Below, in pieces: positions 11,004 through 41,257 of a stretch of DNA of 64,000 nucleotides. Origin of the DNA: Isoetes taiwanensis (lineage: Eukaryota > Streptophyta > Lycopodiopsida > Isoetales > Isoetaceae). The stretch is from assembly GCA_021234155.1 (NCBI GenBank), contig JAJEKV010000021.1, forward strand, positions 20,547,498-20,611,497, in the 5' to 3' direction. The notes under the pieces are model-generated. The model saw nothing but the letters and a program-made list of their open reading frames with translations. It ran no database searches and had not been told where the DNA came from. Both the position numbers and the translations under genes were made by a program. Position 1 is the first letter of the stretch. Every line of letters begins with the position of its first letter.

Positions 11004-11019
11004 AACACGATTGCAAATT

Positions 11020-11047
11020 AAACGGGAGTGTTGCATCACTCCCGTTT
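11020..11047. repeat. Terminal hairpin of element 1 (left)
   Basis: A perfect inverted repeat with 11-bp arms, AAACGGGAGTG and CACTCCCGTTT, around TTGCAT. It overlaps the left terminal inverted repeat. The right end keeps CTCCCGTTTAAT but not the full hairpin. Confidence 0.85.
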
Positions 11048-11354
11048 CAAAGATTCCCTTTAAAAAAACACCATGTTTCTAAAATAAGCCTTTTTTGATA
11101 GTTGTTGAGAATTTCTAGAGGTTTGCATTTTTTTTCATGCCATTTTGGCCCATCATTAGGCGAAAACTTTGTACTTATGAAACAGAAATCATAAAAATAG
11201 CGAAATTTAGGCATAGACTTGAAGAGACTGAAAGCATTACAAAAAAAAGCACCAGAATAGAAAGGAAAAAAAAGTAATATGTTTTTAATAAATTTTTGTA
11301 CATCAATATTGAAGATTCATAGTAATAAATAATGATAATTTTAATATGCAGTAG

Positions 11355-14300
11355 TCAAAGATCTACATCATAGTCCTCCTCATTCTTTTTGCTGCTCTCT
11401 GCCGTCTCGTCCTTCTGTTCAATCTGCTCCTTTGCTGGAGACTTAAGTTTTGTATCCTCCTTGTTCTCTGGAATGGTAGCTAAAGCTACTTCTTTAAGCT
11501 CTGCAAAGGTTGCCTCGTCGTCTAGTGAGCTCGAGAATGGAGGCTGTATCTCTGAGGACGTTAGTTTAGCATAATCAGATGAAGACTTGGCCCCTAACTC
11601 TTGATTTTCATCTGGTAAAGTAGGTAAGGCAGCCAGTCTCATCTTCACAAAATGCACGTACCGCTTATCAATATCCACGGCTACACAGCCAGCGGCCCTT
11701 CTTAAGTGCACATGCGATAGTAGTACCAGAACCGGAGAAAGCATCAAGCACCCAATCTCCGGACGCCGAGAACATGTCCGTGAGATGGTTGATGAGCTTT
11801 TGTGGTTTTGGTAGTGATTCACAATCCTGCCTTTGTGCACTTGGGTCCCGCAATTTCGTGAAGACTGCTGGAAACTCTAGGACGTTTGAAAAGTTTTGAC
11901 AGCGGCCAAGTGTTAAAGTGTTCCATGGACCTCTTCCCATCAAAACTCCAATAAGCTACATGCGGTACTCTACCTTCTTTGAGCAACCTTGGTCCTCCAC
12001 CATGGTAGTTGATGTTCGCTTTTGTACCTAGTGAAGCATTTAAAGTGATGTTAGCAAAAACCGTAAAACACTTCAAAACCGTAAAAGCAGAAACACTATT
12101 CCGGAATACACTACGTAATTAAAGAGAAAAGTAATTGTATTCGAATAAGACTTACCGCATAAGGTTTTCATATCCCGCCCGAACCGAGAACCAAAGTGAT
12201 TTTTGAAAGCTGATTCCACCAAGCCGCATCGCATGCTCGAATGGAACGTAACTAAACGCCAATGTTTGGCCGTTGAGATCCGCTTGATTCCTTCAATGAA
12301 AGCATTAAACTCAAAAATTTGAAGGGCTGGTCGTCAGATCTATTTGTCTTTAAGCTTAAACCCGTAGGGAAGATCAGCAATAACCAAAGTAAAGTCCTGT
12401 GGCTTAACCGTTCCGACAAGGTTCGTGCAATCACCATGAATGATTGAATATAAATTGTTTTGATCAAACATGCAGAATCTCTCGTAGTCGGATGGTTCTG
12501 GCTCAACAGTTCTTCTTTCAGCTAACGACCTCTCTTCCCGTGCTGTTCTAACCAAATTCATAAAGCCCTCGGGCAGGTCTTTATTTTTCTTTTTGCTCTA
12601 AAGAAAAACAAAACAACAACTGTCAAGAGATCGTTTGTGCAGAGAAAAGGAATTTTGAGAGTACTTACCCAGCCCTCAAAATTTGGTGCATATTGCACAA
12701 TGCGCTCGTCGGATGTGGCAATTGGGTAGAGTTCCTTGCACCTTTCCCATGTTTCGACGTTTAGCTGCTCCATCAAACATGTTTGACATGTTATGACGTT
12801 CTTTTGGCTGCAAGACGTTAAGGAAACAATGAGATTAAACGTAAGAATCAAGGCAAAGTAAAAGGAAAACAAATCAAAGTCAAGCTATTTGTATTCTGGA
12901 ATACAAACTGGTTAACTGGTGATGCTACCTCGAAACTTGTCTCTAGAAAATAGTTCTGCTACAGGACAAACACTGCTTGTCTCTAGAAAAGCAATGTGTA
13001 TTCCGGAATACAGATTGCTTCTCTAAAGGAACGCAATGTGTATTCCGGAATACACATGCCTTTCTTTAGAGGAGCAATGTGTATTCCGGAATACACAATG
13101 CTTTTCTAGAGACAAGCAATGTGTATTCCTGAATACACATTGCCCGTGTGAAGGAAGGCATGTGTATTCTGGAATACACTATGTACGCCAATGTTTTTGG
13201 GAATCTAACATGCAAAGAGTAAAGTTTGTGTCAGAGAACTTACTTGTGCAATTCCTTTGACATTTCTTCTAGGCTAAACTCCTTATCAACAACTTTTTGG
13301 AGAAGCCGCCTCCGAAGCTCGGTGTCGGAGAAGCCCTGCATTTCCCTCCAGACGGTAATGGTCATTTCTTTTTGGCCACGTCCGGGGTTTTTTCTTGGCT
13401 GTCTCCTTGCCCTTGCTCTTTAACTCCCTCGCCGAACATTGTAAATATCTCGTCCCGAGTTCCCAAATGCTTCAAGAAGATTTCACGTCAAATAGTTGGT
13501 TTGCTATTCCGAATACATTTTGTGCTTACCTTGCCATCTCTAAAAGCTAATCGAACCGGTTGTCGTGGCCAATGAGAGATCGCCTTTTATTGGCCTCGTC
13601 ATATTTCAGTAAAGATTCAATGGCACACGCCTCCTTAAGCTCCAAGGAAAACGCCGGGCTTCTTAAGGTCCTCACCATACTTTTCCTTGAAAATTACATA
13701 CCCCCCCGGCATAAACCGGATCTTGTCGACAAAGCTCATCTTTAGTTTGTACTTCGTTGTCGACATTGTGGGTGTTGGCAACGATTTTTTGCTTCTTCAT
13801 CCTGTAAGACCACAAGAGAGGTATTGAGAGGGACGAGGAGAGGTACCTCTGTTCTTCTTTTCTTTGTAAAGTTGCCTTCTTGCCTTGAAGCTATGATTCC
13901 CTCCCAAGACGTAGTGAGTGTAGGTGTCAGCGTTTTCTCTGTCATACTCCTGGGGGGTTGTGCACTGCTCCCTGTCAACAAGGACAACTATTGGGGCCAC
14001 ATGAGCATTTGGATTGCTCCTTATTCTCGCCTTCAGTTTCTCAAGTGATCGGCATAAATTTTGCGAACCCGAAGTGGCCTTTCACCGATTCATTTTTCTG
14101 AGGAAGCTTCATTGAAGTGGATCGGCAAATAAATGACACCTTGCACAAACTTGTGCAGGTTAATCTCTTCCATTTTTTCAGATGTTTTATCAACTTTTTT
14201 TTCCTTAATAGCAACACCAGGTGCTTTACCCTTCCCCTTCTTCTTCTTAGGTTCCTCGGGGACTTCTGTGATTTCAAGCTGCTGTGCTTTCCGCTTCTTT

Positions 14301-15589
14301 GGTTCTTTAGCAGCTATGGTTAGCCTTGGCCTGCTAAGTTTCTTTTGGCCGCCGCATTGGGTGTTCTTCCTCGCCTTGTTCCCCGGAACCTCCATCCGAT
14401 GACCTCCCCAAGAACTAGCATCCGAGGGTGATGATTGTGACCTTTCTCCATCCCGGATGCTTCGGACTCACCGGCGGGAAAGTCCTCGCTTGTACCGGGT
14501 ACAAACCTCGCCTAATTATCGAACACAAGCTTCTTTTTATCCGGTAGTGTGAAAAGAATTTGTACAGTGCCGGTGGTTGCACACTGACAATTCTAAAAAA
14601 TGCGATGTCCACAACTATGAAGCCATGGGAGGTCTTGAAGGATAGCCTCCCCACCTGACCACCTTGTCCGGCAACCTCGGAGACATCTTTTATTGTCCCA
14701 AGGTTCACAAACTCGAGTCGGCGTATTTTTTGTTACCAAGACTTTTACGACGCATAAAAAAACGTCGGTTGTCTTTGTATTTTCCATCTGCACCCCTGGT
14801 TACGAACCACTGCGTTTGAAAGTTTTCGTAAATAGCAGGTTCCTCCGTGTCAGCGGTGTGCTTTTGTGGGTGTGGACGCTTAGGCTTTTGAGATTTCTTT
14901 GAAACCCTCTTGCTTCCTTCTTCCCTGCCACTTAAACGTTTAAAACAACAATGTTAAGACAGAAATTCGAACGAAAACTGTATTCCAGAATAACATTTAC
15001 TAATCTTGTGCCCTAAAGGCCAGAAAAAGACAGGAAAACAAGCAGAAATATAGTAACTCTAAGACAATTTTTTGTGCCTTAATTGGACTCGAAATTGTTA
15101 TTTTAACCTTTAAAGTGGTCTGTTTTAGCTAAAAGGTGTCTTCATTAAGTGCTAAAAAACAAGAGTTTCCAAAAAGACAAGCAAAGTGTATTCCGGAATA
15201 CACTTTGCCCTTCGGGTGAAGAGCAAAGTGTATTCCGGAATACACTTTGCCCTTCGGGTGAAGAGCAAAGTGTATTCCGGAATACACTTTGCCCTTCGGG
15301 TGAAGTGCAAAGTCTATTCCGGAATACACTTTGCACTGCAAAGTGTATTCCGGAATACACTTTGCACTTCACCGGCGGGCAAAGTGTATTCCGACACTTT
15401 GCACTTCACCGAAGGGCAAAGTGTATTCGAATACACTTTGCACTTCGCTGAGATGAGCAAAGTGTATTCTAATACACTTTGCTCTTCGATAGATGGGGCA
15501 AAGTGTATTCGAATACACTTTGCCCTACAAACCCAAATCGAAACAAAAGAAAGACGTACTATGTACTTTATATGCTTACCTCGGCCCAT
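11355..15589 (-). CDS. ParB/sulfiredoxin-like domain fused to beta-class DNA amino-methyltransferase (element 1)
   Basis: A multi-exon gene read right to left. A likely start exon (ATGGGCCGAG, 15,589-15,580) is followed by an intron carrying the palindrome array, then coding from about 14.95 kb. At 14,000-13,740 lies a ParB/Srx-like segment (NPNAHVAPIVVLVDREQ.., YVLGGNHSFKARR). Later exons are near 13,440-13,244, 12,807-12,669, 12,597-12,156 (ADLPYGF, methyltransferase motif IV) and 12,027-11,355 (DWVLDAFSGSGTT, motif I). Motif IV before motif I marks the beta class. The D-x-P-Y form suggests adenine-N6 rather than cytosine-N4 transfer, but this is inference. The C-terminus is acidic and lysine-rich. 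Exon order matches the copy at 30.3-40.9 kb. Several frame breaks exist and may be assembly errors. It probably acts in the nucleus on DNA; the target is unknown. Confidence 0.75.
12100..13190. repeat. Dispersed CCGG-centred palindromes in introns
   Basis: Copies of GTGTATTCCGGAATACAC or close variants lie near 12,100, 12,895, 13,005, 13,038, 13,078, 13,120 and 13,165. They sit in introns of the minus-strand methyltransferase gene. A degenerate copy lies near 14,980 and further variants at 15,600-15,850. Variants change mostly the central CCGG (CTGG, CCTG, CG). Confidence 0.9.
15180..15530. repeat. Tandem palindrome array, 42-bp period
   Basis: About nine copies of GTGTATTCCGGAATACAC, each flanked by TTTGC and GCAAA so that the symmetric unit is longer. 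They are separated by spacers such as CCTTCGGGTGAAGA. The first three units have a 42-bp period. Later units lose part of the centre (GTGTATTCGAATACAC, GTGTATTCTAATACAC). The array fills most of the first intron of the minus-strand methyltransferase gene and lies between it and the divergent transposase. It could act as a binding site or control region; no function is shown. Confidence 0.95.
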
Positions 15590-15911
15590 TGTCTTCGCTA
15601 TGTAAATCGGAATACAAAAAATGTATATTGATCTAAGGCCGGGCCGGGCGACTAAATCTCTGAAAAGCGGAATACGAACCGAGGCCGATTTTTCCTTTTT
15701 AAAGGTAGGCCACCGGTTGTGTTTTTCTATGTAATGCGAATACGCCTTGTCCAAACACTGACAAGTGTATTCTCGAATAGCATCTTTGCACACACACGAA
15801 ATGTCGCACACAAAATACTATTCCTAATAGCATTTGTATTCTTGAATATCATTAGTCCAATCGACTTGTGAGTTAGTAACAAGCCCACAATTTTTTGCGC
15901 TTGTTTGACAT

Positions 15912-17451
15912 GGTTAACCGCCAGCGGAACAAACTTCCACCACCATTTGTTTGCCCAAGTACCTCTACTTCAGATGGAACACAAGACTGAGATGCTTCTT
16001 CAACACCTACCTCGACAAGGTCTTTGTTGCTTCTCAAGACACTCGAAGTCCAAGAACTAGAAGACCGCCACCACCTTTCCAACCCTCTCCAAGTCCAAAG
16101 AGGGAAACCGGCCGCCACCACCTTTCCAACCCTCACCGTTGCACGTAGCAATCTTCCACCACCATTTGTACCATCCCCCGACACTACAATGGCTCGACCT
16201 CAAAGAAATTTTTCGAACCGACTACCTCCGTAGCTTGTTGTTTCTCCATCTTCACTTACACATGCCGAATACAAAGACGCTCAAGACCGCGAGATCCTCC
16301 ATCGCTTCTCCCACCACGATTTCACTACAAATGAAGACGACCTGCAAAGATCTACACCTCTTCACACAACCGTGGTGACACATGGGTTTGCGTAATTTCA
16401 CCGCTTTAAGAGACATGTTTGAACGAACTCCCCGCGGAAGACGCTTACAACAACTTTCGGCTTGGCACATCATATGGTGGCCCATCTCCTTCATTCAACA
16501 CCGCACTCCGCCTTATCCCCGCATGCGACTTCACGGGTTTGTTCTCCTCTACAAGCACACCACTAAGGGTAGAGGAGGTCACCCCCGCAGTAGAACTCTC
16601 TTCGATGATGAAGACACCAACGGTGCAACGAGATTACACATTCTTTCAGCCAATCCACCAAGAAATTCAAGGTGGATTTTAGTTTGAGAGCATGCTCCTC
16701 CTCAGAAGAAGAAGAAACCTTATGGACGAAAGCACAAAATGAGAAGACTTTTAAGAAGTAAATGCTGCTCATTGGGTTGCATCAACAAATTTAACATGGC
16801 TAAATTACGAGCAATTAGAGACAACTACAGCAATGACATTGGCTGACCGTAATGCCTATTTGGCCTATCATGTAAGACCAGCATCCACACCTTCTTGCAC
16901 TACATTAACCGGCCAAGAAGTTTGCCGTAAATGCTTTATGGTTGTCCACCGCTTAGGGTCCACCCGAATGTCTAGAATACACAAAAGATCGACAAAAATC
17001 CAGCAATTGATGATCATTGTGGACCAAGAAGAGTTATAACCATGCATGCCCTTCTTCGCTGTGTCATGGATGGAGAAATATTTTAGAGAAACATGTGAGA
17101 AGTCAGCCTACAAGAATATGTATCATTTAACTGATAACATCACCAAAAAAGATGTTTTTAATGAGTACAAAGAGACTTGCACTCAGCTTCAGCACATCTC
17201 TTACTCACACTTCACCAGACTGTGGAAAAGTGAATTCGGTTTAGTGAAAATTCCCAGGAGACATAGAATGTCTGTTTGTTCAAGGTGTGCAGAATTAAAG
17301 AGTCAAAGAGAAACTGCAAAGACAGAGGTCGAAAGAAGTAAAGCATGATTTCATTAATTGGATAAAATAACGCAATTTTGAGAATTTTGAGCACACCTTA
17401 TTTGCTCAAGCACGAATACTTTCACCTAGTACTCGACCCCAACAAACATGA
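15912..17451 (+). CDS. DUF7869-type transposase, N-terminal part (element 1)
   Basis: Divergent from the methyltransferase gene. The likely start is ATG at about 15,912 (MVNRQRNKLPPPF). A proline-rich N-terminus follows with repeated LPPPFV.PS motifs. Next comes a region reading LTGQEVCRKCFMVVHRLG, then WMEKYFRETCEKSAYKNMYHL, SYSHFTRLWKSEFGLVKIP and a CxxC motif (VCSRCAELK). This order is typical of the segment preceding the catalytic domain in DUF7869-family proteins. Coding appears to end at a donor after DPNKHE near 17,451. Several small frame breaks occur between 15.9 and 17.0 kb. The catalytic domain lies 10 kb downstream at 27.5 kb. Either a long intron carries other genes or a later insertion split the gene. 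Confidence 0.6.
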
Positions 17452-17459
17452 GGTAATTA

Positions 17460-18240
17460 ACATACACATATACATACAAATTTTGTGTTATACTTGTACG
17501 TGTACATGACACTCGTATAAGCTCAATAATGGCCCTACATTGTACGCCAATAATTCACATCAATAATTTTACTTCACTATAAAAACGGCTTCACGAGGGG
17601 GTAGAGGCCATTCATCTTCCATGGCTTCCTCGATGCCTCGTCCAGAGCACATCCGCTCTTTCAAGTGTTACTTGAGCTACAACGATCCGGGCTAATGCTT
17701 AGAAATAGCGTTAAGCTTGATCCATGGCTCTTATCTAAAGTCGATGGACCCGCTAGTGCTTGCGTGAAGCTCACTCTCGCGTTAAAGTCCATATTTATCG
17801 GCTTCCCGATCGAGATCTATGAGCTGAATGGCATCACGAGCTTTGATGTTGATGACGAGTGAATCAAGACCGCTAATAATGTAATAATGACATGGGTACC
17901 TAATAACTAAGTAAGGATGTAATAGCATTCTGATTAAGGATGTAATATCAATGCATCTTAACCGAAAGTATATTGTAACGATGTGCTATCCCACCTCCAC
18001 TTATTCTCAAAAGTCGTCATTGAATTCAATCATAGCTAAATTCGCCAAGCAAACATGTTTTGAAACATACGATATTAGTAATGCATACATATATCCATAC
18101 GAAAAGATGTATTATACTTGTATTTATACAACGGTCTTATACACGAGCAATAATGGCTACCAAGTCTACCCCAATAATTCACCTCAATAATTCTACCTCA
18201 CTATAAAAGCTTCTCACTTCTGGGCTAAAGTTCATTCCTC
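17460..18240 (+). promoter_or_regulatory. Duplicated promoter-like block with TATA boxes
   Basis: Two related upstream regions (about 17,460-17,620 and 18,070-18,244) share AATAATTCAC.TCAATAATT followed by TCACTATAAAA, roughly 40-50 bp before an ATG in each case. The pairing of a TATA-like box with a start codon suggests real promoters of the two small ORFs that follow. The similarity between copies is seen directly; promoter activity is inferred. Confidence 0.55.
17621..17862 (+). CDS. Small unknown ORF A (one frame break)
   Basis: Starts MASSMPRPEHIRSFKC and ends YELNGITSFDVDDE, with a frame break near 17,693. It would encode about 80 residues. I recognise no domain. Its partner at 18,245 has matching start (HIEAIKC) and end (YEISWITTTDPEDE) regions, so the two are diverged tandem duplicates. 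They lie inside element 1, in the gap between the two parts of the transposase. The region is rich in TCG/CCG and may contain base errors. Confidence 0.4.
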
Positions 18241-18244
18241 TCAC

Positions 18245-18484
18245 ATGGATTATTTGCCTTCATCAATTCACCACATCGAGGCGATCAAGTGCTCAATGAG
18301 CCACTCGATCTTGTTGGTTGCCTAGACAGCATCTTCTTCTTGATCCCTACCGCGAAGAAAAGCTTTGGGCCGAGATTCGCTGCCCTCTCGGCCAATTGTA
18401 ATGATCCATCTGATTTGGCTTCCTCGAGCTTTAATGAGCTATGAGATATCGTGGATCACTACTACAGATCCCGAAGATGAATGA
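18245..18484 (+). CDS. Small unknown ORF B (frame breaks)
   Basis: Starts MDYLPSSIHHIEAIKC and ends with YEISWITTTDPEDE followed by TGA, with internal stops in a single frame. It appears to be a tandem duplicate of the small ORF at 17,621, with the same promoter-like block upstream. The function is unknown. The acidic C-terminus is common to both copies. Confidence 0.35.
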
Positions 18485-18557
18485 ATCACCCGCTTAGCAT
18501 TGTATAGTGTAAGAGCTCTTGTGTTGAGATGGAAAACGCAGAGCGAACAAATAATAA

Positions 18558-21500
18558 CTAGTCTATTGTAACTTTCATGTTATGAATGATATAGTAATTA
18601 TGTAAAAGAGCATTGCATACCTCAAGAGTTCTCATCATCGCCCTTAGCTTTTTAGCCACTAATTCTTGCAACCGAGCCCTAACACTACTGGGATCACCAC
18701 CGACAATGGCCTGGTCTCTATGGCCCAACCATAGTCTATTGTTTTCAAAGGTTGGTAGCGTATGGGTCATTAGGATTGGGTCTCCAATTCTGCTCCAACA
18801 ATCCCTATAATTGCATTGCATATGAGGTTCCCTTTCTCGCAACAGTTCAAACCAAGAGACAAACACCTCTTCATAATGTGGGAGATTAGGGTCCCATCGG
18901 GTCCTCTTCGCAAAAAAGCCATCCATGCTCTGGCGCTTATCATGTGGTCCGATTAGCAAGAGCATTCCCTTCTTGACATCTTGGTAGGGGTCAATATTTC
19001 AACCGGGTTCTTGGGTCTACCCGAGAAAGGCCCTACGAATGAGATGCTTCAATGTGCTCATCCACAAACACTCTTTCGGGTTCTTCCAATGCACTTTGCC
19101 CGGTGGCCGGGCCGAATCCCAATGACAGCTTTTCACGGGCCGCACGCCACCAAGCACTCGCAGCAAAGGTGGACCAAGAGTCAATAACTTCATTCATATA
19201 TGTGTTGGACCATGACTTATCACCAGCTCTAGAAATAGCTGCCCAAAGCATCATGTACTTGGCAATAGAAGCTCTTAATGCACCTATATCTTTCAAGCTC
19301 CCATATGGTCATAGGACCTTAGGTGACCCTCTCTAATCATAGGTAAACCTTTGGGCATCCTCCTTCCACATTCTCGATTCCCTTTTTCGTGGAGCCACTC
19401 CCTATGCCCCTCGCCTCATCTTGTAGAACATTAGTGGCCATCCATCCTTCATGCAAAACTTGAAGAGTAGAGGTTCCAAGTGACCACATAAACGGTCCTT
19501 CTTATCGTGGATAAATCCTTTCACGAAATTCCTTCCAATCAGAACCTCTGTCACAAGGTAAGGTGAAGGAGCCTTTGAACTACACCGCCATTCATCATTT
19601 TTGTCCTAAGGTTATCTTATTCCCAACCGTTTAAAATTGCTGCACCCACCGCCTTTGATTCGAAAATCAAGATCTCTCAAATGGCCCCAATTATCCTCCT
19701 CGATTTATTCTCCAAGTCTTCAAGGTATGATTCAAGGATCCCACATGAAAATTAGAATCATCGTGCCGAGGTCCAAAGGAGAAGTGGCCCAAGGCACCTA
19801 TACCATGGCCGCATGAGAGCACTGTAACACCGACCTTCACCGCTCACCCTCCATACGGAGACTTTGCTAGCTTCTCTAGACGAGGGACCATGGTCTTATT
19901 CTCGATCCATCTTATCATGTATAATGTTTAAAGCGTGCTCAGAGATCTATGCGACAAAGCTCTCCAGACCGCAAAGGCCCCCGCATGAAATCTGGGTCAT
20001 TATATGTGATTTTCTCTATTGCAAGTACCCTTCTTTCGCTTGATCTCCGGTCTTAGCAAGCTTTTCCTTTATGACAATACAGTGTTTACACTTGGAAAAT
20101 GCTATCCTCTTAGCTATTGCTACCTCTCAATGATTCTCTTTCCAAGCGCATTTAAATGACGGGAGAAATATGCTTGCCCTGCCATCTCTCAGAATCGGAA
20201 ATATCTACTTTTGGTGTATATCCTTCTTAGTCAAGACCAAGGTAGCCTCTTAACATTTTGTTCGCTACCCTCGCCGTAATTTTCGAAAGTGTGGCATCGC
20301 TCTGCGTTTTCATCTATGAACATGGATAGCACAAAGATTGCCAACCAAATTATGAGACCTTGGCTTCTTAGACCCAAGATTTCGCGGTGCTCAAAGAATT
20401 TCGCGGGCGCCATTGAAGAGCTTCTTCCACTTGTAAAAAGTGGAAATGGGAATGCCATAGGCTTTATGCCATGCTTTCACGCGACACCGCTTGTTATTCA
20501 ACATCGGTTTATGGACTACACCATTTTCGTGAGCAAAGATCTAGCATGTTATATGCAAAAGTTGTGCGCCCGAGGACTTCATGTTCCAAAGAAAAGGTTC
20601 TCATGCAAGCTATCTCCCCGATGTAAAATTTGCACAACATCGCTTCATGCAAAGACGTTGATGACCTGAAGTCTAGAATAGCCTCAAAGACTAGTTTTTC
20701 TTTCACATTTAGTCTCAGGCCGGGCGTGGTTCTCGGGTCTCCGATTGACCATGCCGAAGGTCTCTTTTGGTGATGCCAATTTCGGGTCTAATGGAGTAAG
20801 GTTCATTCTCCACATCCTTCTCCTTCACCGCAACCACAAGAGTAGAAACCGAATGTTATCAACGAGCACGAGGGCTATGGGCCATCTCACAAGGTCATGC
20901 AAATTAGGGCATTTCATGTGCCCGGCAAAAGATAGAGATCTTTTTTCGCATTGGAAAAATGTTCATGATAGTAGCAGCTATCGAGCCTTCCCCTAACTTC
21001 ACGCCGACACAAAGATGGTTTGATCGGGTAAAACGATAACACCATAGGCATAAGCCATGTAGCAAAGATTCATGCATGAGTGCACGCCTTCTCAACTAAC
21101 TCATCTCTAGAAAGCCCTTGCACATGATTTGTCTCATTAGTGGCTAACCCCTCATTCCCTCCGGCCCCCGCCAGCCTATCCTTTTATCCGACCTGGTGGG
21201 TGCAAGCTTCCTCATGTCTATCTAGTGGAGCAACAATGTCCTTCTTGTACCACAACACAAAAGTCCCCACAAGCCTTCACCCATTTTTTCTATTTCCAAT
21301 TCGAATTGGTAGCTGTAATCGCCCATCTAGAACATTCACAATTGAAACGACAACCATACCCTCCCGACAAATAATTGTGATGGCGCCGAATTGTGGACTC
21401 TTCCCTTCGCCACCTTTTTCCCCCCAGCCAGATACAAATGAATTACATCAGCCATCCTCCAAACAAGAGGTCGCGGAATAGCGCCGGTCACGATCCTAGT

Positions 21501-21895
21501 GAGCGTAAAGCACCGCGGATCATAAACCACTACAAAAATATGAACCAAAAATAAGAAATGGTCACGACTTTTCGCCACCGCGATCTTATCGAAAGCATGG
21601 GTAAGAACGCCGGCCGCTTATTTGCAAAGCATTCACACTAGTCGCTTCAATAAGAACTCGCGGCAAATCAAATTTCGAGGCTAGCTAGTGGGTTCAAGTC
21701 AAAGTTATCGATATCCGGGAGTTCTTTGGTCAATAGCAAGTGTAGATGGTTGAAGGTATCGCGACCACGATCTCGTGGAGCACCAAAGTTAAACGATTGA
21801 CTTACGTAATAAGGCATTACTCCTACCTCACGTATCACGGTGTTTAGTGTCATAAAAACAAGGTTTAGTTTCATCCACATAGAGAAAGAAAGCAT
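18558..21895 (-). CDS. Unknown minus-strand gene in element 1, broken frames
   Basis: A chain of minus-strand open segments reads like one long protein from about 21,895 (MLSFSMWMKLNLVFMTLNTV) down to 18,558 (ending KVTID). Clear segments include LPDIDNFDLNPLASLE, FTLTRIVTGAIPRPLVWRM, RGFTR-like and CVGVKLGEGSIAATIM, IFCRAHEMP, FEAILDFRSSTSLHEAM, WSNTYMNEVIDSWSTFAAS and WDPNLPHYEEVFVSWFELL. I recognise no domain. Frame changes every 50-100 codons suggest decay or assembly errors, since the stretch is depleted of CTG/CAG and rich in TCG/CCG. It lies within element 1, so it may be transposon cargo or a required accessory gene. Confidence 0.45.
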
Positions 21896-29535: not shown

Positions 29536-29539
29536 GCAT

Positions 29540-29940: not shown

Positions 29941-29957
29941 AGCTCGCAGGCACAGAC

Positions 29958-30056
29958 GGTATAAATTTATACCGCACGGTATAAATTTATACCAAGCAGA
30001 AGCACAAGAGACAAAGAGTGGTATAAATTTATACAGAAAGCGTATAAATTTATACA
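29958..30056. repeat. Four AAATTT-centred palindromes in the shared promoter region
   Basis: Copies of GGTATAAATTTATACC or one-base variants at 29,958, 29,978, 30,020 and 30,041. They lie between the divergent proline-rich segment and the start of the plus-strand methyltransferase gene. Each contains TATAAAT on both strands and so could also behave as a TATA-like element. Confidence 0.9.
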
Positions 30057-30292
30057 GTCGCACAGTGAAAGCAAACAAGGAGGGTACAATTTCATACGAA
30101 AACTTTAGAACGCTGTATATAGAAACTTATGGACAGAAACTATACGAAAGAGCAATTGGCAGTAGTACTTAAGGGAGGCAGAGGCGAGCTCATTATTTGT
30201 ATACGCTGCTTGGCTCGAAGGCGCTCGCGATCCGCCTTATATACTCGCCCCTTTTTGCGACTTCCAGCAGCTATAAGGATCTTCATACGGAC

Positions 30293-32903
30293 ATGGCCAT
30301 GTAAGTTTCTAACCCGTACCATTTCAAGTTTACGTTTCTTTTAGTAGTTTAAACTTTCTATGGTCGTGGTCTTTCGGTATAAATTTATACAGTGGCTGAA
30401 CCCCATTGGTATAAATTTATACCGAGTCTGAACATAAACAGCTTAAAGATATACCGCAGGACGTCTCCCGGTATAAATTTATACCGTGTGAGTTCTTCTC
30501 GGTATAAATTTATACCGAGGAGGAGGACGAACGGGTATAAATTTATACCGGTCGACAGAGTGCTGAGCGGTATAAATTTATACCATGTGAGTCTCCTCGG
30601 TATAAATTTATACTGCGGGTTACTGAAGCGGTATGAATTTATGCAGCAGAGAATTCTGCGGTATAAATTTATGCCGTGGAGACCTCTTTCGGTATAAATT
30701 TATACCAAAAAGGCCAGATCTTTAAAAATTTGTAGAAAATTACACAGTTTCCATAAATTTACAGTGTTTTTAGAGTTAGAGCAGCGTAAAAAGCTGTACA
30801 ATAACACCTAGAATAGCCTTTTCTGACGATGTTTAAGCCTGATTCTTTTGCGTTTTCAGCCAAAAGATAACACTTAAACTCAAAGGTCGGCCTTCAGCTC
30901 CAAAGCCACAATCCTACGAACTCAGAGATGTGACATGGTACACTCACAGGGGCGCTAGGGAACGCTACCCCACTGATTCGTACCTTTACCTTTGCAACAA
31001 GACAGGAAGGGGTAAGTATAAGGCTGAGGATTATTACCCAGCTGGAGAAACGACGAGTTTGGTGGCCTCACACAACGAAGATGAAATAGTTATGACTTGC
31101 ATTAATGACGACGGGGATGTTGAGTACATCCTAAGCACCACAATGTTTAGAATAAGCATGTGCAAGCCAAAAGATGTATATGAGTACATTTCGGAGAACA
31201 ACAAACTTGGTTACGTCAGTATTATGACCTCTTTTCTTTTGTTTGTTGCTTTCTCGTATACATTTATACACATTGAACGCTAACTGAGATTGCCTGACTG
31301 CAGGACATAGTAGACATTTTATCCTCCGTTATTCTTTGTGATGAAAAAGTTATTGTGAAGGGGTTCTGGTACCCACGTACAAATGAAGAGAGAGACAAAG
31401 ACAGAGAGGAGGAAGAGGAAGAGGAAGTTGTGGTTAAAGGAAGAGGAAAAAGGCAAGCTTTGGTCACCACCACAGAGCCACCAAAAAAATCGAGGAAGAC
31501 CAAAGCATTGACCATTGGAGAATCAGCAGAAGCACTACAAAAGGCGTTAGGGGCCGATATTGTCATGAAACCCTCAGACAAATCAAGTGCAATTCTGAAA
31601 CGTGTAAATGAAACAAAGCTCTTCAAACAAACAATCTCCTTATCCTTAAGCACTATCAAGCGACCGCCAAAGAATGAAGACGGGGTCAGGGTGCTTCAAG
31701 TTCGGAAGTTGTACGCAGCACATGTGGGCATACTAAAGCAAAGAATGAGAAGAAATCCACATGCCCATGTGTCTCCTCTGGTTGTCATGGTTGACAGAGA
31801 ACAGGTCCAAAAACTCAAGGATTACAGGAAGGCCGATTTTGAGGACTATACCTACTACGTTCTCGGTGGAACACATAGTTATAAAGCCAGGAAAGAATTG
31901 TCTAAGGAAGAGAGCAGGAATGAGGTTTGGAAGAGTGTGGAAGCCCATATATATGTCGGGTTGACAGATGAGGAGGCCAAAGTCATAGCCGTAAGTCACA
32001 ACCTGGACAATGACTTTAGGTTGAAGATGAGCCTCATAGACAAAATTCGCTTCATGCACAGAGAATACATTGAGTTCAAGCAGTTGCATGGAGATGACTT
32101 TAAGAAGCAAAAGAACAAGCTCCAAGAACTTCGGGAGGCTTGTGTGACAGAATGTTGTCTAAGTTACGACTCTGATAAGAAGCCTATGATGGCGGTAAAG
32201 CAATATGACAACTACTTTCAACTTGCTTTCAGAGATGGCCAAGTAAGTATTTTCTTCTTCATGTTTAAGTTTCTTACAAGGTTTACCAGAATATGTGCAT
32301 TAAAAGACATTTCTACCGCGTCCTGTATCGGTATAAATTTATACCGAGCAATGCCACTGTATAAATTTATACCGGACCAGGACTCGGTATAAATTTATAC
32401 CATTCTAAAATGCTGACGTTTAGAACCTCGGCCCTGTACGGTATAAATTTATACCACGGTCATGAACGGGATAAATTTATACCGTGGCCTCGCCTGCCTA
32501 GAAATAATTGTTTCACAACTAGCCTTAGCCATTAAGCTGCTGCCTTAACGGTCCTCAATTTTTAACAGGTGTGGGATCTGCAAGAAAGAATCTTCTGCAT
32601 GTTTGAAGATGGTGAACTTAAAGAGCAAGCCAGCAGCGCTGGCACAAAACCAAAAAACGTTTCTGAGTCGAAACAAAAAAACATGAGCATAGTGCCATGG
32701 ACACAACTACAGGGCCTGAAGAGCAAAGAAATATTTGTGCGGCTTCTGGAAAAAGTTGTTGCCAAAGAATTTACTCTCGACGAAATGGTTAAGGAAGCTA
32801 AGACGTAAGGAGACTTTACTATGCACTGTACTCAATCCATGTCTAACTCTCTTCTTGAAAGGACATTGTCACATGCCAGTCGGAGTTAATGAAGCAACTA
32901 AAT
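30293..32903 (+). CDS. ParB/sulfiredoxin-like + DNA methyltransferase gene, 5' half (element 2)
   Basis: The proposed start exon is ATGGCCAT (30,293-30,300, good context, donor GTAAGT). Exons follow at 30,860-31,214, 31,304-32,242, 32,569-32,804 and about 32,858-32,903. Phases fit except at the last acceptor, where a CAG seems to be missing. The third exon encodes an acidic/basic linker and then the ParB/Srx-like domain: NPHAHVSPLVVMVDRE, YYVLGGTHSYKARKELS (compare G-x-H-x-x-x-A loops of ParB and sulfiredoxin), and GLTDEEAKVIAVSHNLDNDF. Ligands and activity are unknown. Coding continues at 39,388 after an inserted LTR element. The paralogue at 11.4-15.6 kb has the same exon order. Confidence 0.8.
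30376..30706. repeat. Tandem palindrome array in intron 1 (element 2)
   Basis: Ten copies of GGTATAAATTTATACC or near variants start at 30,376, 30,408, 30,470, 30,501, 30,534, 30,569, 30,599, 30,630, 30,660 and 30,691. Spacers of about 15-45 bp share little sequence, so conservation is confined to the palindrome. The array fills intron 1 between the 8-bp start exon and the second exon. Constraint on the palindrome alone suggests selection for protein binding or recent amplification. Confidence 0.95.
32330..32483. repeat. Five palindromes in intron 3 (element 2)
   Basis: GGTATAAATTTATACC-like copies at 32,330, 32,359, 32,386, 32,440 and 32,468 fill the intron between the exons ending 32,242 and starting 32,569. 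The last copy lacks one T. Confidence 0.92.
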
Positions 32904-33795
32904 TGTAATGGTCCTGGCCCCTTGGCAGTCTAATATACACATTTGTGTATGGTAAGTATATGGGTTGTACTATATGTACTTGTGGCATGCATGCAGCATG
33001 GTCTCATGTAAACAAAGGGTTTACAAAATAAGACAATTTTGGGAAAGAGGGCTTTTTGCAAACGTGAAGCTATGGGAAGGCAGGAGCTTGGAAGGATTGC
33101 ACCGGGAGGATTGTTGAAGAAAGGACATTGGAGCTTGGAGACTGCATCAGATCTTCTCTTATCAGGTGGGGTTTTGGATTTTGTGGATTCAAGTTGTGGT
33201 TGCATAGGCTGCTAAGAATCAATCTGTACATGCTTTTGGATGGTAGATTTACTCTTTGTTAGCTATGGCTGGAATTGTTTAGGCTCTGGTAAGGCCTGCA
33301 AAGCAAGATTGAATATGCGATGATGGCTTGAACCGCAGGAAAATAAGAAAGACACCCGCAGAATAAGTGCCGATTTGCTGCACCAAAGCCTTGAAGGTGT
33401 ATGTAAAATGTTTTGCTCCATTAACAAATCTGTCGGCAAGCGTATTATAGCTCTAATTAGACCGAACCGAATCGCAAGAGGGCATGGAAGAATCAACCTC
33501 AGAAGCTGCCAGAAATATCTAGATTTACAGAATAAAATGTTAATTTGATTGAATCAGAGGCTTGTTGCTTTGTTAGCTGGTTGGTTGAGGCAATAAAGCA
33601 GTTGAATCAGGTCGGAATTGGAGAAGAAGGCCGGATTGGGGCCTCAGAAGGGCCGATCTAGCCCGCATTAACCGCCAATCGAGGCAAGAGAGGCTTCTTG
33701 AGCCGTCTAAACCGATTAGATCACCAGAATTTGCTTGGGTCGATCAAAGCCGTTAGAAAGGGCCGATTTGGGATGTAAAGTGGCCGATTTGGCTT

Positions 33796-35297
33796 GGGAG
33801 GCTTCAATTGGAGGAATCGATGCCTTTTGGGGCGGCCCAACCGCCGGGAAATGAAGACGCCTCTGCCGTTGTTTTGGTCGCTTTGGTTATTTTTTGGTTT
33901 TGGTTGGTTCTTTGTTGTTACTTTTGTTGCATGCCTTAATTAACAATAGTTCAAAGGAAGTAATAGTTAGTAGTTCAAAGGAAAAATAATAGGAAGCTCA
34001 AGGGCTTGGATTGAGGCCAGGTCCTGCGGCAAGAAATTTGGATAGGGGCCAGAACTATGTAAGAACCTGGATTGCTTCGGAAAAGAACATGTAATAATAA
34101 ATAAATATAATTAAAGGGTAATAACTTGAGAACTCTTGGAGATTGGTATCCCTTGGCTCCTGAAGATGGGGCCTAGGCCTAGAGTTATTAGCATGTGATA
34201 TAAGCAGGAGGTCCTATGGATTTTTAAGTCGGAAGTGCGGCAATTGGAGTTTCCACATTGGGTGCACTAATTAATCACTTAGCTATGGAAGTGGTTTTTA
34301 ATATAAAAATATTAAAACCTTAGCTAGCAATTGTTAGTGATAAATTAAAGAAAGCATGTTGGAACTTTGGAGACCTAGAGAAGTTGAGCCGAGAGAGAAA
34401 TATGAAGTATATTGAGGGTCCAGATGAGGCTATGGCATGGAGCACTGTAAGCCTAAGTGTATAACTGTAAGTTTTTAAGTTGTTGAGCTATATTTTATCA
34501 GAGGCATCATAGCTAATGGATTATCCTCATGGGAGAATGGTTCTGAGGGGAGGCTTCAATTGGAGGAATCGATGCCTTTTGGGAGGCGTCCAACTGCCGA
34601 AAATGAAGACGTCTGCGTTTGTTTTGGTCGTTTTGGTTATTTTTTGTTTTGGTTGGTTCTTTGTTGTTACTTTTGTTGCATGCCTTAATTAACAATAGTT
34701 CAAAGGAAGTAATAGTTAGTAGTTCAAAGGAAAAATAATAGGAAGCTCAAGGGCTTGGATTGAGGCCAGGTCCTGCGGCAAGAAATTTGGATAGGGGCCA
34801 GAACTATGTAAGAACCTGGATTGCTTCGGAAAAGAACATGTAATAATAAATAAATATAATTAAAGGGTAATAACTTGAGAACTCTTGGAGATTGGTATCC
34901 CTTGGCTCCTGAAGATGGGGCCTAGGCCTAGAGTTATTAGCATGTGATATAAGTAGGAGGTCCTATGGATTTTTAAGTCGGAAGTGAGGCAATTGGAGTT
35001 TCCACATTGGGTGCACTAATTAATCACTTAGCTATGGAAGTGGTTTTTAATATAAAAATATTAAAACCTTAGCTAGCAATTGTTAGTGATAAATTAAAGA
35101 AAGCATGTTGGAACTTTGGAGACCTAGAGAAGTTGAGCCGAGAGAGAAATATGAAGTATATTGAGGGTCCAGATGAGGCTATGGCATGGAGCAATCAGAA
35201 GCCTAAGTGTATAACTGTAAGTTTTTAAGTTGTTGAGCTATATTTTATCAGAGGCATCATAGCTAATGGATTATCCTCATGGGAGAATGGTTCTGAG
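33796..35297 (+). repeat. 752-bp tandem duplication inside the 5' LTR
   Basis: The segment beginning GGGAGGCTTCAATTGGAGG occurs at 33,796 and again at 34,548. It occurs only once in the 3' LTR (about 37,553). This explains why the 5' LTR (3,476 bp) is about 753 bp longer than the 3' LTR (2,723 bp). It could be a real tandem duplication or an assembly expansion. Confidence 0.85.
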
Positions 35298-36379
35298 GTA
35301 AGTTTGCATGTTTGGAATGTTGTTTTTCCTTGTTCAGTGAAGAACATAGGTATGGGAGCTACATCAATGATAGTTAGGCTTGTGACTTCCCCTCAACATG
35401 TTTGGATCAGTAAGTTAGCTACCTCAACATGGGCAAGTTGTACAGGCAACATCAGCAGCAGTATGATCTAGGCACATTTATAGTAAACTCTCTAATGAAC
35501 GCACATGTTATGGTCTTGCATTGTTCCAATCGCCGTTCTTGGTATTTGATTATGTCTCTTGAACCTCCGGGTCGGACTTCTAGGTTCTGTGGCCTAGGTT
35601 GCTCCCCGGATGCTCATGTTCATCTGTGATTCTCTGTGGTTCTTGTGGCTCGCGGACACCGGGGCGAAGTTTCCACGATCGGGATGCTATGTCACCTCGT
35701 GACTCCATGGTAAGAGGTCCTCCAAATATTAAAACCGGCGTAAATGGGAAGGGTATGCGCATAATGAGGTTCACCCCACCAACTCCTCAACCAACGGGCT
35801 CGGAATGTGAGCTGGCCGGGCATTTCTCGCTAACGTGGCCTGCATGTAGGTCGGCCGAGCTTCCCATTGTCCCGAGCTATGTGTCATGATGGTTTGGTAT
35901 TTTGACTATGTCTTGCTTCCGATGTTCATGTTGATATTTCTTTGGATTATGTTGTCATTGTCTTAGCACCGTACTCCACGTGGGGATTTTTTCGTCGTGT
36001 TTGTGCTTATCCAAGAATTGCGAGTATTTCCACGCATGCAGTGGCAGCCAGGGATCCCCACTTAGTCACGAGGACTAACCCCAGTGAGTGCATGTGCAGT
36101 GAGGTAGCAAGCATAGACATGGAGCTTGGGAGCATGGTCGCGCTAGAAGATTCTCAAAAACTGCATTTTATTATATTGTGTAGTGAATTCATATTGTACT
36201 TGATGGATATTGAGTTTATAGAATTTGTCCATTGAATTTGAAGAATGAATGATCAATTATCTAAGGAAGATTCAATTCTTCACCATATTCAACCGATTGT
36301 CACACCAACCTAGTAAGAGTTTTCACAAGTTTTGACAAGATCCCGAAGGTTCGGAGGGTCAACTCGCGTGCTCGGCTCA

Positions 36380-36659
36380 GCTTTGGTATCAGAGCAATGT
36401 TGGATCTTTGGGAGTTGGCTTGTCTGATGGTGCCATTGTGATGCTAACGGTTTTTTCTTTCAGAGACATCAGGAGATGGTATCCTCAGAGGGGGTTAGCA
36501 TATGAAGGTGCTAAGCTTTTCGGCGATGTGGAGGTACGCTTTCCTTGTATAGATTTGGTGTATATATGATCATGATAGTTCTAATGGATTCGCCAAGTCT
36601 TTGCTAAGATTCAGTGATCGACCCATGAGGACATGGGTTAATTTTTAGAAGGGGAGACT
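36380..36659 (+). other. Internal domain of the LTR element (PBS and PPT only)
   Basis: Contains the primer-binding site TGGTATCAGAGC just after the 5' LTR and TTTTTAGAAGGGGAGAC just before the 3' LTR. No reading frame of interest lies between. The element therefore depends on proteins supplied elsewhere. Confidence 0.85.
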
Positions 36660-39387
36660 GTAATGGTCCTGGCCCCTTGGCAGTCTAATATACACATTTG
36701 TGTATGGTAAGTATATGGGTTGTACTATATGTACTTGTGGCATGCATGCAGCATGGTCTCATGTAAACAAAGGGTTTACAAAATAAGACAATTTTGGGAA
36801 AGAGGGCTTTTTGCAAACGTGAAGCTATGGGAAGGCAGGAGCTTGGAAGGATTGCACCGGGAGGATTGTTGAAGAAAGGACATTGGAGCTTGGAGACTGC
36901 ATCAGATCTTCTCTTATCAGGTGGGGTTTTGGATTTTGTGGATTCAAGTTGTGGTTGCATAGGCTGCTAAGAATCAATCTGTACATGCTTTTGGATGGTA
37001 GATTTACTCTTTGTTAGCTATGGCTGGAATTGTTCAGGCTCTGGTAAGGCCTGCAAAGCAAGATTGAATATGCAGATGATGGCTTGAACCAGAGGAAAAT
37101 AAGAAAGACAGCCAGAGAATAAGTGCCGATTTGCTGCACCAAAGCCTTGAAGGTGTACAGAAATGTTTTGCTCCATTAACAGTCTGCCGGCAAGCGTATT
37201 ATAGCTCTAATTAGACTGGAACTGAATCGCAAGAGGGCATGGAAGAATCAACCTGTAGCTGCCAGGAAATATCTAGATTTACAGAATAAAATGTTAATTT
37301 GATTGAATCAGAGGCTTGTTGCTTTGTTAGCTGGTTGGTTGAGGCAATAAAGCAGTTGAATCAGGTCGGAATTGGAGAAGAAGGCCGGATTGGGGCCTCA
37401 GAAGGGCCGATCTAGCCCAGACACCGCGAATCAGAGGCAAGAGAGGCTTCTTGGAGCTGTCTAAACTGATTAGATCACTGTAAATTCTGTTGGGTCAGAT
37501 CAAAGCTGTTAGAAAGGGGCCGATTTGGGATGTAAAGTGGCCGATTTGGCTTGGGGAGGCTTCAATTGGAGGAATCGATGCCTTTTGGGAGGCGTCCAAC
37601 TGCAGAAAATGAAGACGTCTGCGTTTGTTTTGGTCGTTTTGGTTATTTTTGGTTTTGGTTGGTTCTTTGTTGTTACTTTTGTTGCATGCCTTAATTAACA
37701 ATAGTTCAAAGGAAGTAATAGTTAGTAGTTCAAAGGAAAAATAATAGGAAGCTCAAGGGCTTGGATTGAGGCCAGGTCCTGCGGCAAGAAATTTGGATAG
37801 GGGCCAGAACTATGTAAGAACCTGGATTGCTTCGGAAAAGAACATGTAATAATAAATAAATATAATTAAAGGGTAATAACTTGAGAACTCTTGGAGATTG
37901 GTATCCCTTGGCTCCTGAAGATGGGGCCTAGGCCTAGAGTTATTAGCATGTGATATAAGCAGGAGGTCCTATGGATTTTTAAGTCGGAAGTGCGGCAATT
38001 GGAGTTTCCACATTGGGTGCACTAATTAATCACTTAGCTAAGGAAGTGGTTTTTAATATAAAAATATTAAAACCTTAGCTAGCAATTGTTAGTGATAAAT
38101 TAAAGAAAGCATGTTGGAACTTTGGAGACCTAGAGAAGTTGAGCCGAGAGAGAAATATGAAGTATATTGAGGGTCCAGATGAGGCTATGGCATGGAGCAC
38201 TGTAAGCCTAAGTGTATAACTGTAAGTTTTTAAGTTGTTGAGCTATATTTTATCAGAGGCATCATAGCTAATGGATTATCCTCATGGGAGAATGGTTCTG
38301 AGGTAAGTTTGCATGTTTGGAATGTTGTTTTTCCTTGTTCAGTGAAGAACATAGGTATGGGAGCTACATCAATGATAGTTAGGCTTGTGACTTCCCCTCA
38401 ACATGTTTGGATCAGTAAGTTAGCTACCTCAACATGGGCAAGTTGTACAGGCAACATCAGCAGCAGTATGATCTAGGCACATTTATAGTAAACTCTCTAA
38501 TGAACGCACATGTTATGGTCTTGCATTGTTCCACTGTCGTTCTTGGTATTTGATTATGTCTCTTGGAACCTCCGGGGTCGGACTTCTAGGTTCGGTGGCC
38601 TAGGTTGCTCCGGCATGCTCATGTTCATCTGTGATTCTCTGTGGTTCTTGTGCTCTGTGACACCGGGCGTAGTTTCCCTGATCAGGATGCTATGTCACCT
38701 CTGTGACTCCATGGTAAGAGGTCCTCCAGCGCCAGACGTGGGCTGGGAAGGGTATGCGCATACGAGGTTCACCCCACCAACTCCGCCAACGGGGCTCGGA
38801 ATGTGAGCTGGCCGGGCATTTCTCTGCTAACAGGGCCTGCATGTAGGCTGGCTGAGCTTCCCATTGTCCCGGAGCTATGTGTCATGATGGTTTGGTATTT
38901 TTGACTATGTCTTGCTTCTGATGTTCATGTTGATATTTCTTTGGATTATGTTGTCATTGTCTTAGCACTGTACTCACGTAGGATTTTTCGTCTGTGTTTG
39001 TGCTTATCCAAGAATTGCAGAGTATTTCCACGCATGCAGTGGCAGCCAGGGATCCCCACTTAGTCACGAGGACTAACCCCAGTGAGTGCATGTGCAGTGA
39101 GGTAGCAAGCATAGACATGGAGCTTGGGAGCATGGTCGCGCTAGAAGATTCTGCGCAAAAACTGCATTTTATTATATTGTGTAGTGAATTCATATTGTAC
39201 TTGATGGATATTGAGTTTATAGAATTTGTCCATTGAATTTGAAGAATGAATGATCAATTATCTAAGGAAGATTCAATTCTTCACCATATTCAACTGATTG
39301 TCACACCAACCTAGTAAGAGTTTTCGCAAGTTTTGACAAGATCCCGAGTTGCCTGGAGGGTCAACTCGGCAGGCTCGTCACATAAAT

Positions 39388-40886
39388 TTAGAAGACTGGG
39401 AGGAGTGCAAGCTTCTTTACCCGACATGTACAACAGACAGTATAATACGAGAACATGCGGTCAACTTTAGTGGCTGGGTGAGTTTGTAAGAAGAACTGCT
39501 TTGTGCTTTTGTGCTTTTGTGCCTCTGCCTTACTCCTTTCTTACAGAACAAGAAGAAAGGTCTGCCAACAGGCTTCTTGAATCTGGTTCGAAGGGCAAAA
39601 GAGGAAAGGCAAAGATTAAAAGCCATCGAACAGGGCAAGCAGGTAGCTGAAAGCAGTTCTGAGGGTGGCTACGAAAGATTTACAACATATGGCCAGGACT
39701 GCTTGTACAAAGTTGTACATGGTGACTGCACCAAACTAGGGACACTGTTGGATAAGCAGAACTTTACATTGTGCATAGCAGACATTCCCTATGGTTTTAA
39801 GATCAAGGACAGTGTTTTTGATGATGAAGCCTTTACTCATGTGCAAGTAAAAGCATTTTTGGATGGTCTAAAGGACGTCACGTTGTCGGCAAATTGGAGA
39901 GTCATAATCTTTCACTCCGACCTTCAAACGATGTCTGTGTTAAAACCCGTTTCATTGGTCTGCAACGCCGGCTTTGAAAATTGCATCTGGTAAGCCTCGA
40001 AGTTGCTTGCTTTTTGTAATTTAAAAAGATTATGCTGCACAAATTTATACTGCAGTCCTTGCTGTATAAATTTATACAGCAGGAACCCCGCGGTATAAAT
40101 TTATATAGCAGGAGACCTGCGGTATAAATTTATACAGCAGTCCCTCGGCCGTATACATTTATACCATTTCCTCAAGTCTTTCGACTTACCTTTTCTTTCT
40201 GCTCTAGGCTGAAGACAAACGTTAAAGGTCATGGTGGTGGTCCACGGTTAGTCAGCTGCTTCGAACATTTTCACATAGGCTACTACAGCGCTGACACCAA
40301 GAAGACCATGGTGCACTTTAACACTCAAGGTGAGAAGACCCCACCGTGCAATGCATTCCAATTCCCCGCCGTCTTACAGAAGCTGAGAGACCCGCAGAGG
40401 CAAGGCGCTGTGGTGTCTCACTACCAGAAACCCCAAAGGCTAATTAACAATCTGATACAATGGTTTTCACGCCCTGGGGACTGGGTTTTGGATGCTTTTT
40501 CAGGAACTGGCACCACAGCTATATGCGCTCTTAAGCAGGGGCGTAACGTGGTGTCAGTTGACATTGACCCAGACAAAATCAGCTTCATCAGGACTCGAAT
40601 AAGCTCCTGTGAGTCCTTTCCAGATGAAAATGAGGAATTAGGAGCAAAAAATGGTGCTGGGGATGTCAAAGGCACCTACACTGAAATCCAGCCTCCTATT
40701 ACAGGAAGAAAAGACGAGGAGGTGGAGTTTTTAGACCTCAAACCAGTGGAGGTAGAGCCCCCCAAGCAGCCAGTTCCAGTACCATTAGAATCAGAAGCAG
40801 GTGTCTCAGGCTTCGTGGCATTACAAGAAACAGAGCAAAAGGGAGATGCGAGCCCTGTAGACTGGGAGGAACCTCCCGTCGTATAA
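39388..40886 (+). CDS. ParB-methyltransferase gene, 3' half (element 2)
   Basis: Continues the interrupted exon (39,388-39,477, LEDWEECKLLYPTCTTDS.., ending NFSGW before GTGAGT). Exons 39,547-39,989 and 40,208-40,886 follow with matching phases. The first of these carries YKVVHGDCTKLG and CIADIPYGFKIKD (motif IV, D-x-P-Y). The last carries GGGPRL, RDPQRQGAVVSHYQKPQRLI, then DWVLDAFSGTGTTAICALKQGRNVVSVDID (motifs I and II). Motif order gives a beta-class amino-methyltransferase. Adenine-N6 is favoured by the D in motif IV, but cytosine-N4 cannot be excluded. The C-terminal tail is proline/glutamate rich. The stop TAA at 40,884 lies within a palindrome copy. The catalytic half is fully open and appears intact. 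Confidence 0.85.
40063..40165. repeat. Palindromes in the last intron (element 2)
   Basis: Copies near 40,063, 40,092, 40,121 and 40,150, with a degenerate one at about 40,038. All are within the intron between 39,989 and 40,208. Several have TATACA or TATATA in place of TATACC. Confidence 0.9.
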
Positions 40887-40895
40887 ATTTATACC
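40880..40895. repeat. Palindrome containing the stop codon
   Basis: CGTATAAATTTATACC overlaps the last codons (GTC GTA TAA) of the methyltransferase gene, so the stop codon is supplied by the palindrome. A degraded copy follows at about 40,918. Confidence 0.85.
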
Positions 40896-41173
40896 GACAG
40901 GTTTCAATTTTAAAATGTCGGTATAGATTTGTACAAGGAACTGAATTTTATGTTCTCTAATGTTCGCATTAATGCCCTTTGTATTGTTTTGGAAATCCAC
41001 TAAGAAATTTAAAATGGATTCTCTTATTCTGTCTCCAGCAATGTCTAATTACAGCAACTACCACTTCTTTTCCACATACTTTATTTTTTACTTTTTGTAA
41101 ATTACACTTTAAAGGCATTTGCAGATTTATTGTACAAAAATTTGCGTTAACCTCCTCAAAACAGTCTCTTTTT

Positions 41174-41257
41174 GGGTTGCCCCTATGGGGGCAAACCCTT
41201 GTTTATGTGGGTTTATGGCATATCCTAGGTATATGCTACAATATACCTAGGATATGC
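41174..41257. repeat. Two hairpins downstream of the element 2 gene
   Basis: GGGTTGCCCC/GGGGGCAAACCC around TAT (41,174-41,198), then a 17-bp perfect inverted repeat GCATATCCTAGGTATAT around GCTACA (41,218-41,257). By position, about 300 bp beyond the methyltransferase stop, they parallel the terminal hairpin of element 1. I could not match them to sequence at the left edge of element 2. Confidence 0.8.

Follow-up and report, generated by a model that had tools for sequence, protein, structure and literature searches.

Which protein reads the short palindromes that crowd two neighbouring transposons, and why does each transposon carry a palindrome of its own? The question is raised by a stretch of 64,000 nucleotides of the lycophyte Isoetes taiwanensis (assembly GCA_021234155.1, contig JAJEKV010000021.1, positions 20,547,498 to 20,611,497), hereafter the window, in which elements A and B each encode, divergently from a proline-rich transposase frame, a protein that joins a ParB-like domain to a DNA methyltransferase (ParB-methylase). 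A and B are best explained, from their sequences, as copies of two related, high-copy DNA-transposon families. An earlier note on this DNA had described two such genes with the same exon order and one palindrome type per element, repeated in introns and promoter. Both descriptions hold: the two proteins are identical at 380 of 850 aligned residues (45%), their exon order is the same, and A-type sites lie only in A and B-type sites only in B.

We find it reasonably probable that these arrays, in the methylase introns and in the shared promoter, are docking sites of the ParB-methylase of the same family. Each family would carry, as an accessory gene divergent from the transposase, a ParB-N-fold domain fused to a beta-class N6-adenine/N4-cytosine (N6A/N4C) DNA methyltransferase; this protein, probably dimeric, would load on the regularly stepped sites of the arrays and would then methylate and/or repress the promoter and body of its own element, which would thus be marked. 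The mark would most likely oppose host silencing in a family-private way, and site and protein would have diverged together. We infer binding, methylation and anti-silencing from the fact that a methyl-adding enzyme and a ParB-fold domain are encoded beside palindrome arrays of their own family; the mark may activate, repress or label. A more specific version, in which parS-like targeting has been re-invented within plant transposons, the tethered methyltransferase is carried over the element and leaves a bacterial-type mark that labels self and blocks or reverses silencing, and joint drift of protein and site makes the families mutually blind, is possible and is put forward tentatively.

Palindromes and methylase clades

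The A-type palindrome GTGTATTCCGGAATACAC occurs in the window at 12 sites (up to 4 mismatches), all within 12094-15360, and a form that is 2 bp shorter at 3 sites (up to 3 mismatches; 15421-15518), while the B-type palindrome GGTATAAATTTATACC occurs at 26 sites (up to 3 mismatches), all within 29958-40935. Ten Markov-shuffled windows contain on average 0.0, 0.3 and 0.5 such sites, respectively. Perfect palindromes of at least 16 bp number 24 in the 64 kb (1.75 expected), 21 of which are of the two types (9 in A, 12 in B). The half-sites, GTGTATTCC and CGGTATAAA, share GTAT at the same place, and the stop codon of the B methylase falls within the palindrome at 40880.

We searched 1,658,258,908 bases in 1110 contigs; the available text on the Isoetes taiwanensis genome gives 1658.30 Mb in 204 scaffolds and 909 contigs, from nanopore and Illumina reads (PMC8566536). 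Exact matches amount to 2585 A sites and 7218 B sites, and to none for either pattern when reversed. A-clade methylase exons (E<=1e-4) are present in 16 of the 18 A-site clusters that were fetched (out of 22 in a list confined to the first places), four of them being weak (L013, L018, L021 and L022). Nineteen sequences (17 fetched loci, the C4 stretch and the window) contain 170 A sites: 8 lie in matched exon stretches, and for another 136 the nearest A-clade exon is no more than 2.5 kb away. All 55 B sites lie within B-clade exons or close to them, and the 17 other loci are free of B sites. The C4 locus, which was chosen by an A site, holds two elements side by side, one of the B family with 29 B sites and one of the A family with 4 A sites: it is an unplanned test, which the rule linking palindrome to clade passed. 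Starting from the methylase instead, in a small sample of top-scored copies compared by coordinates only, with an A-site list that covers contigs C1-C64, the A-clade copies C23, C37, C50, C61 and C62 have an exact A site within 1.3 kb among the matches listed, and for the B-clade copies C25, C46 (two) and C51 the list gives no A site within 25 kb; these five A-clade copies lie at loci already fetched by their A sites. In the copies read, palindrome type tracks methylase clade, as the earlier note had supposed.

The spacing of the sites bears on two rival explanations. Among A sites, 73 of the 94 neighbouring steps below 130 bp are 41 or 42 bp, and around 163 A sites the 18-mer holds 0.7-2.0 bits per base, the three bases on each side 0.8-1.1 and the spacer beyond 0-0.5; choosing sites by at most 3-4 mismatches builds in part of the conservation of the 18-mer, not the spacing contrast, and this counts among the reservations gathered below. 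B sites match their consensus at 96% and 94% in two copies, and their spacers match each other at 57% (46% when shuffled). The B steps, 37 in number, include 17 of 30-33 bp, 7 of 28, 4 of 20-21 and 3 of 42. The 42 bp suggest helical phasing in A, which we do not claim for B, since 28-bp steps stand there beside steps of 20-21, 30-32 and 42 bp. It is highly improbable that tandem duplication and homogenisation alone made the arrays, as passive minisatellites with no protein function: some A units are indeed exact 42-bp repeats (15180-15295), but sites and step persist where the spacers vary from locus to locus and from unit to unit, and several introns carry arrays. That the palindromes are purely cis-regulatory, either as sites of host transcription factors or as RNA hairpins for splicing or small RNAs, would fit their position in introns and promoter and the longer imperfect palindromes within which A sites lie; we nevertheless hold it to be quite unlikely, given that two families in one host carry two different sequences, that the near-fixed A step spans diverged spacers, and that B sites show no extended symmetry above shuffles.

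The centre of the A site reads CG in 83 cases, CA in 44 and TG in 36, and is missing in 16. Host CG methylation has probably reached the A arrays, since this combination is the footprint of deamination of 5-methylcytosine (5mC).

A third possibility is that the palindromes bind the transposase or another element protein, the ParB-methylase acting without them. The transposase belongs to the same families, would co-diverge, and starts from the same promoter region. However, in the C23 copy of element A the sites (up to 4 mismatches) are confined to 1051-4941, the side of the methylase and promoter, and none is found in the terminal inverted repeats (TIRs) or in the transposase frames (5042-8252), while the B arrays occupy three introns (1, 3 and 6) of the methylase gene; we therefore regard this possibility as unlikely.

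The ParB-methylase

The B gene model comprises 930 residues in seven exons. Its methyltransferase is of the beta class, as the earlier note had called it: PF01555 is matched with 55.1 bits (curated cut-off 26.7), and motif IV (ADIPYG, exon 6) precedes motif I (LDAFSGTGTT, exon 7). Exon 3 has a ParB-N/Srx fold, which bears out the ParB-like call, and is under purifying selection. The ParB part is 58-84% identical among A copies, 91% between B copies and 47-52% between A and B (L010 being incomplete and C4A too short for comparison; L015, whose aligned sequence includes no true ParB part, is excluded). In the domain scan of the copies, the Pfam ParB family was not matched; DUF6551 appeared at E 0.015-0.12 only and the unrelated model IgA0_D2 at 8.8e-4 in one copy, all below cut-offs. 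The helical part (242-313) is poorly covered in the VIA list, where no ParB match of its own follows residue 242. A homologue search with the B protein alone and two scans of viral contigs gave no match; relatives were reached only by a profile of seven copies, and in phages and plasmids only the methyltransferase part aligned among the matches listed. A four-row AlphaFold model (predicted local distance difference test score 36) was discarded.

Methyltransferases often read palindromes, and it may be asked whether the arrays are only recognition sequences of the methylase, which methylation would protect or count, while the ParB domain serves another purpose. Both site types do hold adenines in the common GTAT/ATAC half-site (by eye). 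However, fixed-step arrays look like loading sites, and the recognition sites of known orphan methyltransferases fall far below 16-18 bp, so that we consider this reading improbable.

Several observations weigh against our proposal that the arrays are docking sites of the ParB-methylase. The transposase, instead of the methylase, could equally be the protein that co-diverges with the sites. Most of the loci read had been chosen for their A sites, and the comparison covers only two clades and two types of palindrome, B being represented by two copies read. The A arrays at L016 and L019 have no methylase found in 9.9 kb, 26 of the 170 A sites have no exon of their own clade within 2.5 kb, and for one A-clade copy (C29:86840-87800) the list gives no exact A site in the neighbourhood. 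The earlier note had named copies lacking palindromes, or sharing them at random, as grounds for giving up the idea; the loci read mostly did not supply such grounds, the exceptions being the arrays at L016 and L019 and the C29 copy. The aligned A copies are frame-broken, with 8-33 events against B, and B exon 2 is weakly conserved between the two B copies (59% of amino acids, rate of nonsynonymous substitution, dN, 0.31). Last, GERR is the phosphate-binding motif of ParB and of its CTPase clamp; the position reads GGTHS in B, GGNHS in most A copies and GGSHS in many relatives, which makes CTP clamping doubtful.

About 20-24 frame events (two alignments) separate the A methylase of the window from B, and the A-clade ratio of nonsynonymous to synonymous substitution rates was left unused, as frameshifts make it unreliable. 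One conceivable source of these frameshifts, the miscalling of plant CHG sites by which CCG, CAG or CTG would appear as CG, is not supported, because few short unique deletions involve CHG in five aligned copies (2/6, 3/6, 2/5, 6/18 and 6/16) and the events are no nearer CpG than chance (p 0.20). CAG/CTG are at 0.41 of expectation at 17346-27450 and at 0.76 at 11019-15600, and CpG is high in these two regions (0.91 and 0.79; host flanks 0.45-0.54).

The elements and their surroundings

The earlier note had given 11004..41257 for the two elements together; the start is that of element A, which ends at 29354, while element B ends at 41203 and has lost its left end. Element A, inserted in a copia frame, runs from AACACGATTGC to GCAATCTTGTT (TIRs AACACGATTGCAAATTAAACGGGAG... 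on the left and ...CTCCCGTTTAATACGCAATCTTGTT on the right), and owes its length to the 10.1-kb element C inside its transposase gene. Equal ends and 4-bp target site duplications (TSDs) recur in further copies, which are other loci of the same genome: the four copies with both ends visible have ATTA (window), ATAT (C23, 8630 bp long), CCAC (L007) and TTTA (L021), and a fifth, L028, has TTTA at one end and TCTA at the other. A 4-bp TSD is that of the Sola1 superfamily, and the joined transposase pieces of A belong to the DUF7869 group (PF25273); both families are probably Sola1-like. The identity of A to the C23 copy is 84% at 14521-17341, 90% at 27448-28762 and 98% at 28800-29354, and only 69% at 11004-14518, so that the window copy looks like a mosaic. 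The arrays at L016 and L019 lie near A-type TIR pieces and possibly belong to non-autonomous or decayed copies.

The nested element C has the TIR AAGCATGATTTCATTAATT and the TSD AGTA, both read by eye at the junctions. It contains no perfect palindrome of at least 16 bp and no Pfam domain above cut-off. A piece of its + strand, VLDFFSAGTASRVALMQGKKSVAFE, resembles methyltransferase motif I (PF01555 E=0.11, below cut-off), with frames on the opposite strand; C is perhaps a third methylase-bearing transposon.

No left TIR of element B and no B transposase core (DUF7869) is found in the window, where only the proline-rich start remains. All B exons are open, the retroelement (about 6.5 kb) in exon 5 being the sole gross lesion of the gene. 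That the B family is young and numerous is suggested by 150 genome matches to exon 7, scored out of 3127 first-look candidates and counting that of the window itself, which are 73-100% identical, roughly 90 of them without internal stops. At C976:451678-452409 and C1039:76120-76806, a single stretch, interrupted by stops, matches nearly the whole length of PF01555; the C976 place is moreover 79% identical to the A exon 6 region, and the exons may lie closer together there.

Features of the window
Feature	Position	Strand	Basis or remark
Element A, whole transposon	11004..29354		18,351 bp, nested insert included; flanked by TSD ATTA (11000-11003, 29355-29358)
A ParB-like/methyltransferase gene, frame-broken	11358..14953	-	frameshift-tolerant alignment to B protein
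A-type palindromes, intron upstream of exon for ITCQTCLMEQLN	12889..13179		step 41-42 bp from 12996 on
A-type array, divergent promoter region	15186..15518		5 full-length sites, 3 shortened ones
A transposase, proline-rich N-terminus and following part	15918..17345	+	reading frames
Nested element C in A transposase gene	17346..27447		gap between alignments of A to C23 copy
A transposase, DUF7869 core and acidic tail	27448..28978	+	PF25273 E=3.2e-38 on joined pieces
Element B	29536..41203		left boundary approximate, the end being lost against a copia remnant; ...GGGGGCAAACCCTTGTT is the right TIR, ending at 41203
B transposase, proline-rich N-terminus only	29644..29940	-	region aligns to C4 copy
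14 B-type palindromes, divergent promoter and intron 1	29958..30706		site scan
B methylase exon 1	30293..30300	+	GT/AG junctions
B exon 2, N-terminal domain of no assigned type	30860..31214	+	gene model
B exon 3, ParB-N fold and helical part	31304..32242	+	profile/fold comparison
5 B-type palindromes, intron 3	32330..32483		site scan
B exon 4	32569..32804	+	gene model; exon 4/5 junction phase provisional
B exon 5, first part	32862..32904	+	gene model
Long terminal repeat-type retroelement in B exon 5	32905..39388		repeats 32904/36659 and 33867/34616/37622; junction; TSD TAAATT by eye
B exon 5, second part	39389..39477	+	gene model
B exon 6, motif IV ADIPYG	39547..39989	+	gene model
4 B-type palindromes, intron 6	40063..40165		site scan
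B exon 7, motif I LDAFSGTGTT	40208..40887	+	PF01555 E=1.4e-14

Beside element B lies an SNF2 helicase (42454-44381, +), which by eye resembles CLSY/DRD1 and whose frame shifts once, near 43345. An open frame of 424 amino acids (62575-63849, +) has a histone H3 core (Pfam E=3.3e-42) behind a 310-residue extension of no assigned type; its nearest PDB entries are H3.3 and H3.1, and it is perhaps a captured or variant H3. A YYVSD..HD..FVQ-like pattern, seen by eye at 48423-49130 (+) and in L019 near 8851 (-), may belong to another transposase family, and another palindrome array, CTTTCTCGACTCGCGAGTCGAGAAAG, occurs in the same genome at L018:5490-5979 and L017:9246 and 9559.

Comparison with known systems

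The ParB-methylase shares with CcrM-like beta-class methyltransferases the motif order, PF01555 and the best PDB match. Motif IV of this class is usually DPPY, unlike the ADIPYG/ADLPYG seen here, and the domain belongs to a gene model of 930 residues and seven exons. Bacterial ParB, Noc and KorB act at parS-type palindromes, whereas the A/B protein is fused to a methyltransferase, sits in a eukaryotic transposon and has not kept GERR.

The nearest gene by description is that of Sola1-1_Ec32 of the brown alga Ectocarpus, a large element whose accessory gene, opposite to the transposase, encodes a ParB-like domain and an N4C/N6A methyltransferase, and for which self-binding and self-modification are proposed, green and red algae being cited too (PMC12477816). 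Element A and its C23 copy have the same arrangement. The earlier note's statement that no such plant transposon had been described is not quite right; our literature search (mostly open-access papers) found no land-plant case and no palindrome targets. Sola1-1_Ec32 differs in that its host is an alga and not a vascular plant; the main text of that paper nowhere contains the stem "palindrom", and the available account holds no site-protein co-divergence (PMC12477816). A ParB-methylase, in the literature covered so far proposed in algae only, would thus gain concrete DNA targets in a vascular plant, with thousands of genomic sites and the site of the other family as an in-genome negative control. 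With such targets and control, two questions can be put to a direct test. One is whether the nuclear DNA of land plants receives N6A or N4C in a sequence-specific manner, and the other is how self-recognition that is private to a selfish element, and directed against silencing, evolves.

The closest working analogue is VANC of the Arabidopsis VANDAL elements, a transposon-encoded protein that undoes silencing by means of short motifs repeated in the non-coding DNA of its own family, motif and protein diverging together between families (PMC5735166, PMC10398659). A and B likewise hold family-specific motif arrays in non-coding regions. The available accounts of VANC describe a loss of 5mC and motifs of 8-9 bases (YAGTATTAY, AGTTGT(C/A)C), and mention no ParB or methyltransferase domain; the A and B elements have palindromes of 16-18 bp and an enzyme that adds methyl groups.

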